Assembly (NCBI GenBank): GCA_006538405.1
Contig: BJKQ01000001.1
Coordinates: forward strand, 620,001 to 684,000
Direction of reading: 5' to 3'
DNA: 64,000 bases
Source: Hansfordia pulvinata
Taxonomy: Eukaryota; Ascomycota; Sordariomycetes; Xylariales
Part shown: piece by piece, positions 14,640 to 18,251 of the stretch
How the letters are laid out: every line of letters begins with the position of its first letter
Numbering within the stretch: the first letter of the stretch is position 1
Position numbers and translations under genes: made by a program
Notes under the pieces: model-generated
What the model was told of the DNA's origin: nothing
The model's database searches: none
The model's input: only the letters and a program-made list of their open reading frames with translations

Positions 14640-17423
14640 ATGGCGCCCAAAAGCCGAACCAACGGCGCCGTCAAGGCCGCCACTGCCAAGGCCGCTGCTG
14701 GAGCCAAGGCCGCCGCCGTGGCTGTCACTGCCGTTGTGGCCCCCGAAGCTGTTGTGCCTACGTCCGACGGCCCCGTCTCGATTGCTTCTCCTGCCGCTCT
14801 TGCGCCGGCGCGAAAACCCGACCTACATTTAGTGGTGAGTAAACTCCTTGAACGCCCAAGTTGCAGGGCCCGATCTGACATGGCATCTGCCGCCGACCAG
14901 TCCAACGATGATGCCGTCTACGAACAAGATATCGTGCGCGACCCTGGCAGCATCAAGCCCTGGCTGGCCTACATTCAGTTTAAAATGCAGCACGGCACTC
15001 TTCACGAACAAGCCTTCGTTCTCGAACGCGCCTGTCTACAGCTGCCCCGCTCCTACAAGCTGTGGAAGATGGTAAGTCCGGCGAACCACGCTCCTTGCTT
15101 CGTCAATCATGGGCCTTAGCTTCATTTGTCCAAGTCGACGCTGACCAGTTTCCAGTATCTGCGCCTCCGTACGAAACATGTCGCCAAACTCAACGCCGCT
15201 GTCTTCGCCTCCGAATTCAACAAGGTCAATGCCCTGTTTGAAAAAGCTCTCATCCTGCTGAACAAGATGCCCCGTATATGGGAGATGTATCTCAAGTTTC
15301 TACTACAGCAGCCCCTCGTCACCCTTACCCGTCGCACTTTTGATCGGGCTCTGCGCGCCCTCCCTATCACCCAGCATAACCGGATCTGGTCTATCTACCG
15401 CCCCTTCGCAAACTCGGCTGCCGGCCAGACTGCCGTCAAGATCTGGAGGCGCTACATGCAGGTCCACCCCGAGGATGTGGAGGACTTCATTGAGCTGCTA
15501 TCACACCCCCATGTGGCTCTCTACACTGAAGCTGTCCACAACTACATGACCATTCTCAACAACCCCCGCTTCCACAGCAAGCAGAGCAAGGGCCACTACG
15601 AGCTATGGGGCGATATGATTGACTTGCTCGTCGAGCATGCCACCGCCGTCGAGACGGGGTACGAGTCAGGCATAGACGTCGACCGCATCATCCGTTCCGG
15701 TATTCTTCGCTTTGCTGATCAGCGCGGGAAGCTTTGGTGCGGTCTTGCGACCTATTGGATTCGGCGCGGCAGCTTTGAACGTGCTCGCGATGTCTTCGAG
15801 GAGGGCATCACCACTGTCATGACTGTGCGCGATTTCACCACGATATTCGACACATATGCCGAGTTCGAGGAGTCTGTTATTGGTGCTCTCATGGAGATGG
15901 CATCGACCCGCGCTGAGACAGGCAAGCCCGACGACGACGCCGACTTCGATCTCGATATTCGCATGATGCGCTTCGAGCAGCTGATGGACCGCCGCCCCTT
16001 TCTGCTTAATGACGTTCTACTCCGCCAAAACCCCAACACCGTCGCTGAGTGGGAGAAGCGCGTTAACCTTTGGGGTGAGAACTCCCACGAGGTGGTACAG
16101 ACCTACACGGACGCCATCGCTGCAATCCAACCCAAGAAGGCCGTGGGCCCCTTCCATCAGCTTTGGGCCAACTATGCAAAATTCTACGAAAAGGCTGGCG
16201 ACATTCGGAACGCCCGCGTCATCATGGAGAAGGCCGTCAAGGTGCCCTTCAAGTCAGTCGCCGAACTTGCTGACATGTGGATTGAATGGGCCGAGATGGA
16301 GCTACGCAACGACAACTTCGACGAAGCTGTCAAGATCATGGCCAAGGCTGTCCAGTCCCCCAAACGCTCCACCGTCGACTACTTTGATGAAACCCTGTCG
16401 CCACAACAGAGGGTTCACAAGAGCTGGAAGCTGTGGTCTTTCTACGTCGACCTCGTTGAGAGCGTAAGCTCTCTTGATGAGACCAAGAAGGTGTACGAAC
16501 GCATTTTCGAGCTGCGCATTGCTACTCCTCAGACAGTCGTCAACTACGCGAATCTCATGGAGGAGAACAAATACTACGAGGAGTCCTTCAAGATCTACGA
16601 AAGGGGGCTGGATCTTTTCAGCTACCCCGTCGCCTTCGAGCTGTGGAATCTTTACCTCACCAAGGCCGTCGATCGCAAGATCGGCATTGAGCGATTGCGT
16701 GACCTGTTTGAGCAGGCTGTGGAAGATTGCCCTCCCAAGTTTGCCAAGACGATATACCTGATGTATGGCAATCTTGAGGAGGAGCGGGGACTGGCGCGAC
16801 ACGCCATGCGCATTTACGAGCGTGCAACCCGTGCTGTCTCCGACGAGGATCGCGCCGACATGTTCAACTTCTACATCACCAAATCAGCCTCCAATTTTGG
16901 TTTGCCCTCGACGCGGCCAATCTACGAACGCGCCATCGCTGCGCTGCCGGATGATGAGGCCCGCGATATGTGCATCAAGTTTGCGGACATGGAGAAGCGT
17001 TTGGGTGAGATCGACCGTGCCCGCGCCATTTACGGCCATGCCTCCCAGTTCTGTGACCCTCGGACCAACCCCAACTTCTGGGCCCGCTGGGAGGGCTTCG
17101 AGGTACAGCACGGAAACGAGGACACGTACAAGGAGATGCTGCGTGTCAAGCGCTCTGTGCAGGCGCAGTACAACACGGACGTCAACTTCATTGCCAGTCA
17201 GGCCATTGCGCGTCAACAGCAGGGCGAGGGGGCACCTGCAGGCAATGGTGGCGATGCCGAGGTGGCTGATGCAATGGAACAGCTCGAGCGCCAGGCTCGC
17301 GCTCCAGCTGGATTTGTCCCCAGCAGTGAAGGCATACAGGGGACTATTGCCATGGGCCAGCAGCAGCCACCTGCGGCCAGCAATCCCGATGCAATTGACA
17401 TTGACGGCATGGACGACGACTAA
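14640..17423 (+). CDS. SYF1: Pre-mRNA-splicing factor Syf1 (HAT-repeat protein)
   Basis: Syf1 (human XAB2) is a scaffold of the Prp19/NTC complex of the catalytic spliceosome, in the nucleus. Exons 14640-14834, 14901-15071 and 15156-17423 give 877 aa. After a low-complexity alanine-rich N-terminus of about 60 residues, HAT (half-a-TPR) repeats follow one another: GSIKPWLAYIQFK, LPRSYKLWKMYLRLR, NKMPRIWEMYLKFL, GPFHQLWANYAKFYEKAGD, KSVAELADMWIEWAEMELR, YPVAFELWNLYLTKAVDR and PKFAKTIYLMYGNLEEERG. The C-terminus is short and acidic (IDIDGMDDD). Intron 1 (66 nt) has a length divisible by three and no stop, so unspliced RNA would still be open; the splice is preferred because it restores LVSNDDAVYEQD as in homologues. 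Confidence 0.95.
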
Positions 17424-18029: not shown

Positions 18030-18159
18030 AGCATCTTGGCGCAGCGGAAGCGCGGTATGTTCCAATCCACACGTCTTCGACACCTTCGAACACACCCACT
18101 GACATATCACAGCCGGGCTCATAACCCGGAGGTCCTTGGATCGAAACCAAGAGATGCTA
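18030..18159 (+). tRNA. Initiator tRNA-Met(CAT) interrupted by a 58-nt insert
   Basis: Exons are 18030-18054 (positions 1-26) and 18113-18159 (positions 27-73). Joined they fold perfectly: acceptor AGCATCT with AGATGCT, D stem GCGC/GCGC, anticodon stem CCGGG/CCCGG around CTCATAA (anticodon CAT), and T stem CTTGG/CCAAG around ATCGAAA. Eukaryotic initiator hallmarks are present: A1:T72, GGG:CCC in the anticodon stem, and A54/A60 in the T loop. Both internal Pol III promoter elements are intact (A box TGGCGCAGCGG, B box GGATCGAAACC). The insert lies after position 26, not at the canonical 37/38 site. A T4 run follows at 18173-18176. Confidence 0.9.
18055..18112 (+). other. Spliceosomal-type intron inside the initiator tRNA gene
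   Basis: The 58-nt insert begins GTATGT, contains ACTGAC with the candidate branch A at 18102, and ends CACAG ten bases later. Length and signals match the protein-gene introns of this window (HAP3 intron 2 is also 58 nt; HAP3 intron 3 and the effector-gene intron also start GTATGT). Removing it exactly restores a complete initiator tRNA. I see no bulge-helix-bulge at its ends. That it is spliced is inference. Confidence 0.7.
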
Positions 18160-18175
18160 TGCTCATCCCATCTTT

Positions 18176-18247
18176 TCCGAATTGGTGTAGTGGCTAACAT
18201 TTGACGCTCTCACCGTCAAGCCCGGGGTTCGATTCCCCGATTCGGAG
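18176..18247 (+). tRNA. tRNA-Glu(CTC)
   Basis: A 72-nt intronless tRNA: acceptor TCCGAAT/ATTCGGA, D arm GTGT...ACAT, anticodon stem TGACG/CGTCA with loop CTCTCAC (anticodon CTC), T arm CGGGG TTCGATT CCCCG, discriminator G. It starts 16 bases after the initiator tRNA on the same strand. Confidence 0.95.
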
Positions 18248-18251
18248 TTTC

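Follow-up and report, generated by a model that had tools for sequence, protein, structure and literature searches.

Can a fungal nuclear tRNA gene be interrupted by an intron of the mRNA type and, if so, how would the cell obtain the mature tRNA? The question is raised by a locus of Hansfordia pulvinata within a stretch of 64,000 nucleotides (hereafter, the window; positions 620,001 to 684,000 of contig BJKQ01000001.1, assembly GCA_006538405.1), where an initiator tRNA-Met gene is split by a short insert with splice signals. The reading that we prefer, with a probability of about 0.92, is that four initiator tRNA-Met genes of this genome carry U2-type introns, and that a Pol III precursor would be spliced by the spliceosome to an ordinary tRNA.

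The split initiator gene and its copies in the genome

The gene lies on the forward strand of the window. Its 5′ exon (18030..18054) covers tRNA positions 1-26, with the 5′ strand of the acceptor stem, the D arm, G26, and the A box. Its 3′ exon (18113..18159) contains the anticodon arm with the anticodon CAT (18120-18122), the T arm with A54 and A60, the B box (about 18138-18148), the 3′ strand of the acceptor stem, and the discriminator A73. Between them, at tRNA positions 26/27, lies a putative spliceosomal-type intron of 58 nt (18055..18112, same strand), and three paralogous inserts occupy the same site in other genes. Both promoter elements, which we take to be the A and B boxes from their consensus, are intact, and the insert separates them.

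Hallmarks of eukaryotic initiators include a CAU anticodon, A1:U72, three G:C pairs beside the anticodon loop, and A60. Joining the exons (removal of 18055-18112) gave a full initiator tRNA of 72 nt with anticodon CAT. Its stems are AGCATCT/AGATGCT (acceptor), GCGC/GCGC (D), and CCGGG/CCCGG (anticodon), and the T arm reads CTTGG-ATCGAAA-CCAAG, followed by discriminator A. The joined tRNA displays CAU, A1:U72 (A1:T72 in the gene), GGG:CCC in the anticodon stem, A54, and A60, all identical in the four loci; A54U55C56 is among the features stated for initiators in PMC3978253. A preliminary description of this locus had claimed an initiator gene split at 26/27, an insert between the A and B boxes, the initiator hallmarks, and a perfectly folding tRNA. 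The sequence is as described for the first three. The last held in part: the cloverleaf helices are mismatch-free, but the predicted best fold of the unmodified 72-nt RNA (-30.0 kcal/mol) has no normal anticodon arm and scores better than the cloverleaf (-27.9 kcal/mol).

We searched the whole assembly (46,805,188 bases, that is 46.8 Mb, in 63 contigs) and retrieved four initiator genes on three contigs: C1 at 638 kb (the window copy), C1 at 974 kb, C5 at 518 kb, and C11 at 58 kb. An exact pattern for the anticodon arm (GGGCTCATAACCC) matched exactly four places in the assembly and one for the D arm (TGGCGCAGCGGAAGCG) matched four mismatch-free places, the same four genes in both cases; with up to two mismatches, TGGCGCAGCGGAAGCG matched 112 places versus 175 in the control. 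As a DNA query, the joined 72-nt tRNA hit four loci, each as two pieces only, the downstream piece starting at base 25. A looser pattern of an initiator anticodon loop and an A54-type T loop (CTCATAAC...TCGAAAC) returned the same four genes only.

An unsplit initiator gene was not found in the assembly with the two exact exon patterns, the joined query, and the looser pattern, a search that would pass over unassembled stretches or a copy differing in both exon patterns. The preliminary description had named intact initiator genes elsewhere in the genome as the finding that would speak against it; all four genes retrieved carry the insert. Prokaryote genomes and viral contigs, scanned with exact patterns, gave no match, as expected.

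The inserts measure 58, 54, 52, and 54 nt, all at one site. In the alignment of the four copies, the 72 exon columns are all invariant. In five of the six pairs, the similarity of the insert interiors does not exceed that of shuffled sequence (shuffle fractions 0.10 to 0.77); those of the C5 and C11 copies are related, with 22 of 33 columns identical and 0 of 2000 shuffles as good. What is best preserved across the copies is the tRNA itself together with the splice signals. The 60-bp flanks scored above shuffles in four of six pairs upstream and three of six downstream (7/12; fraction 0.022 or less). From these alignments, the copies may be younger than insert divergence alone suggests, or the flanks may have promoter or terminator elements in common. 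A T run is the common element of the downstream flanks, and each of the four initiator genes has CAACG in the 30 bp before it.

At the technical level, gene finders passed over or misread these genes. On the window, ARAGORN (bacterial code) and Rfam (gathering score) reported the neighbouring tRNA-Glu alone. With introns allowed, ARAGORN read the four initiator loci (L009-L012) as Gly(tcc), Stop(tta), Tyr(ata), and Pyl(cta), with false introns of 30-38 nt each. Thus, such split genes may stay hidden in other fungal genomes, and where a fungal annotation lists an odd suppressor or Pyl tRNA, a split initiator gene may lie behind it. For tRNAscan-SE 2.0, a non-canonical intron search is described for archaea (PMC8450103). 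Of 1071 first-look candidates, our whole-genome tRNA search scored 63, which falls short of a census. In that search, the same tRNA matches recurred on contigs C37, C51, C54, and C62, and twice on C37, 69,855 bp apart; the pattern suggests that the assembly went more than once around a mitochondrial genome of about 70 kb.

Splice signals of the inserts and introns of the host genome

Introns of the U2 type have a branch consensus CTRAC and an acceptor YAG; self-splicing introns are far longer. The window insert starts with the 5′ splice site GTATGT (18055..18060, + strand), of which six of six bases are invariant in the four inserts. Its branch site is CTGAC (18099..18103, +), which is CTAAC in the other three copies, and its presumed branch A (18102, +) lies 10 nt from the intron end, a distance kept in all four. 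The 3′ splice site is CAG (18110..18112, +), and the other copies also end in YAG. A longer block, CACTRACAT, precedes the 3′ end in each of the inserts. All four thus combine a donor of the GURWGY type, a CTRAC branch site near the 3′ end, and a YAG end; GURWGY is given as the donor consensus for Hypoxylaceae in PMC8469720.

The signals named in the preliminary description were therefore located, and they are kept in the paralogous inserts: they are invariant or conservatively changed while the interior drifts. Their retention across four otherwise diverged inserts supports a spliceosomal intron and suggests selection for U2-type splicing. With the base composition of the window, the chance of finding these signals (GTATGT start, CTRAC in range, YAG) in one random insert is about 1.1e-7. 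Within the window, GTATGT..CTRAC..YAG occurred three times, whereas 30 Markov-sampled sequences had 0.53 on average and at most 3. One of the three matches in the window is the initiator insert.

To compare the inserts with mRNA introns, we used SYF1. The gene encodes a spliceosome protein and adjoins the split tRNA gene upstream (about 14781-17423, +; ORF 15267-17423 plus upstream exons), which is probably a coincidence. Among the best 120 of 2463 matches, its ORF had its best hits, at 89-87% identity, in Hypoxylon, Durotheca, Annulohypoxylon, and Microdochium (Xylariales), and a Sordariales match, Apodospora, at 87%. These hits suggest a host among the Sordariomycetes, close to Xylariales. 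Reading the boundaries by eye on an alignment to four relatives, we placed two introns in SYF1, 66 and 84 nt long. Their signals are GTGAGT or GTAAGT, CTGAC, and CAG, and intron 1 also has CTGACAT. On these sequences, mRNA introns of the host and the tRNA inserts look alike.

Genome-wide, the pattern GTATGT..CTAAC..AG gave 249 matches versus 247 for the reversed one, which is a poor control since it has different words. An enrichment of the intron consensus across the genome was accordingly dropped, the count being no higher than in that control. From the first 30 of the 249 places, we kept 20 distinct YAG-ended ones, of which one is initiator copy C1b and 19 are non-tRNA. In the sampled matches, taken as candidate introns, the distance from CTAAC to the end is 8-16 nt, with a median of 11.5. 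Joining the flanks gained an open frame in 8 of the 20 and lost one in a single case. With only 8 of 20 gaining a frame and a count no higher than the control, many pattern matches are not introns. The preliminary description had called the insert length typical of mRNA introns here, which is plausible as far as it goes: the comparison comprises two SYF1 introns (66 and 84 nt) and candidate introns of 46-73 nt, the latter from a length-bounded pattern.

Two further features were compared with the same sample. CTRACAT is present in all four inserts, which are related copies, and CTAACAT in 2 of the 19 non-tRNA matches. TTTT is absent from the four inserts and also from 16 of the 19 non-tRNA matches. 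Selection against TTTT inside the inserts was thus discarded; TTTT-free inserts are compatible with Pol III, not diagnostic of it.

Precursor folds, transcription, and rival explanations

In the predicted minimum-energy folds of the precursors, the acceptor, anticodon, and T stems form in four of four and the D stem in three of four. In two of these folds, the window's included, the 5′ splice site is predicted to pair with the bases that start at the branch A and continue downstream, a pairing that would have to open for splicing. In the other two precursors, 5 and 6 of the 6 pairs of the same helix are possible, outside the best fold. The consensus fold has the helix as well: 4 of its 6 pairs are invariant, one has changed on one side only, and one is broken in one copy. 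We dropped the idea of a conserved helix that might time splicing: it belongs to the minimum-energy fold in two of four precursors only, and its pairs show one-sided changes and a broken one. An origin of the inserts from the symmetrical stwintrons of Hypoxylaceae is not supported, since their ends pair over at most 8 bp; for those stwintrons, PMC8469720 gives terminal inverted repeats of 45-55 nt.

Features of Pol III genes (A box, B box, and a T run downstream) are found in all four copies. The T runs are T4 after the window copy and T7, T7, and T6 after the other three, where they lie within about 10 bp. Kept boxes plus a downstream T run fit Pol III, without being proof of it. The T4 of the window (TTTT, 18171..18174, +) is a possible weak terminator. 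It stands directly before an intact, unsplit tRNA-Glu(CTC) gene (18175..18248, +; ARAGORN and Rfam), and the interval between the two tRNA genes, 18160-18174, is just 15 bp long and ends in this TTTT. The initiator tRNA and tRNA-Glu(CTC) may at times share one precursor.

It could then be that the introns are spliceosomal but that the functional tRNA comes from a Pol II transcript, or from a longer RNA made jointly with, for example, tRNA-Glu. We regard this as very unlikely. The mere T4 between the window gene and a tRNA-Glu gene 15 bp away would suit it, as would the fact that most spliceosomal introns reside in Pol II RNAs. However, the A and B boxes are intact, T6 or T7 follows the other three genes, and ARAGORN found no further tRNA genes in the 3-kb loci around them. 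It is also highly improbable, in our view, that the four split genes are inactive and that an unsplit initiator gene absent from the assembly serves the cell. Gaps exist in an assembly of 63 contigs. A 2014 review (Yoshihisa; PMC4090602) states that a eukaryotic tRNA gene with an insertion in its D or T arm is mostly a single member of a large synonymous set and is regarded as a pseudogene, the nucleomorph and red-algal cases excepted. Here, by contrast, every copy found has the insert, and identical exons with drifted inserts are the reverse of pseudogene decay. The failure to find an unsplit gene in the assembly and the T run after each gene point the same way.

The inserts could also be unusual tRNA introns, cut out by the tRNA splicing endonuclease, with tRNA ligase sealing the junction, as in red-algal nuclei and nucleomorphs, where non-canonical D- and T-arm introns are known (PMC4090602). 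The enzyme is presumably present, since ARAGORN placed introns at position 38 in two tRNA-Lys(CTT) genes, of 32 nt in L086 (88-193, -) and 11 nt in L087 (118-202, +); the tRNA-Lys(CTT) loci L002-L005 were called without an intron. All four precursors can satisfy relaxed rules, under which the bulge has 4 nt and the adjoining helix 3-4 bp, G-U pairs included. Yet a strict bulge-helix-bulge of the archaeal and red-algal type (3-nt bulges, 4-bp helix) at the junctions is impossible in each of them, the best attempt reaching three of four pairs, and the insert site, 26/27, is far from the position 37/38 of endonuclease introns. Moreover, we know of no reason why the endonuclease should preserve GTATGT, CTRAC at a constant spacing, and YAG when the four inserts have otherwise diverged, and we consider its involvement extremely unlikely. 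The spliceosomal reading already proposed in the preliminary description is thus favored by the kept signals, by the search that found no unsplit copy, and by the failed strict endonuclease structure. As for other tRNAs, a search of the assembly for introns with the GTATGT donor placed before an elongator B box (GTTCGANTCC) yielded 0 matches versus 4 for the reversed pattern.

On the spliceosomal, Pol III reading, the four nuclear initiator genes would each be interrupted after position 26 by an old U2-type intron, 52-58 nt long. Pol III would transcribe them from the internal A and B boxes and stop at the downstream T run, and the nuclear spliceosome would remove the intron through GUAUGU, the CURAC branch site, and YAG. 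The spliced precursor would then yield a normal initiator tRNA of 72 nt. From the gene sequences we infer that Pol III transcribes the genes, that the introns are in fact spliced out, and that the cell depends on this splicing.

Significance and comparison with known systems

With no unsplit copy turning up in the assembly, the start of cytosolic translation would require that a Pol III transcript be spliced. We consider it likely that every cytosolic initiator tRNA passes through the spliceosome, so that initiation would be obligatorily coupled to pre-mRNA splicing capacity and a Pol III tRNA family would have left the endonuclease pathway. If true, a nuclear tRNA family would need the spliceosome to mature, and the tRNA concerned is the one that starts every cytosolic protein, tying translation initiation to splicing. 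The spliceosome would also act on a Pol III transcript other than its own component. Besides, the genes would be a natural test of the distance tolerated between A and B boxes.

Among the matches listed in the open-access full-text literature, no title or abstract described a tRNA with a spliceosomal intron. The closest systems share some of its features. The nuclear tRNA introns at 37/38 are, like the initiator inserts, intervening sequences absent from the mature tRNA; the inserts differ by their position at 26/27, their GT-AG ends, their branch site, and the lack of a strict bulge-helix-bulge. In red-algal nuclei and in nucleomorphs, functional tRNA genes have non-canonical introns in the D and T arms, which are attributed to the tRNA endonuclease, with bulge-helix-bulge motifs in C. 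merolae and inserts of 3-24 nt in Guillardia theta, according to PMC4090602. As described there, those introns resemble the initiator inserts in lying outside position 37/38 in eukaryotic tRNA genes.

mRNA-type introns are also present in structured RNAs that are not Pol II products. Spliceosomal introns in ascomycete nuclear rDNA are the subject, judging by the title, of LoBuglio et al. (1993). They are in line with the initiator inserts in this respect, whereas the rDNA system involves an rRNA, Pol I, and many copies.

Fungal U3 snoRNA genes have spliceosomal introns, with several copies in some species, and a 2017 survey of U3 in fungi names U3 and U6 as the only small structured RNAs so far known to be often interrupted by introns (PMC5832005). 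As far as that survey describes them, the U3 introns share with the initiator inserts canonical splice signals in the gene of a small structured non-coding RNA, and the RNA class is another one.

U6 is made by Pol III. Its genes reportedly have mRNA-type introns in fungi (Tani and Ohshima, 1989; Canzler et al., 2016). In the genome studied here, a single U6 snRNA match emerged from the 47 candidates scored (L043, G000:C6:1513530-1513630, -); it spans the whole model in 101 contiguous bases and is intron-free. The U6 introns of other fungi and the initiator inserts have in common a short spliceosomal intron in a small structured RNA. However, U6 is a component of the spliceosome, whereas the RNA interrupted here is a tRNA, with all copies found affected and a product needed for translation initiation.
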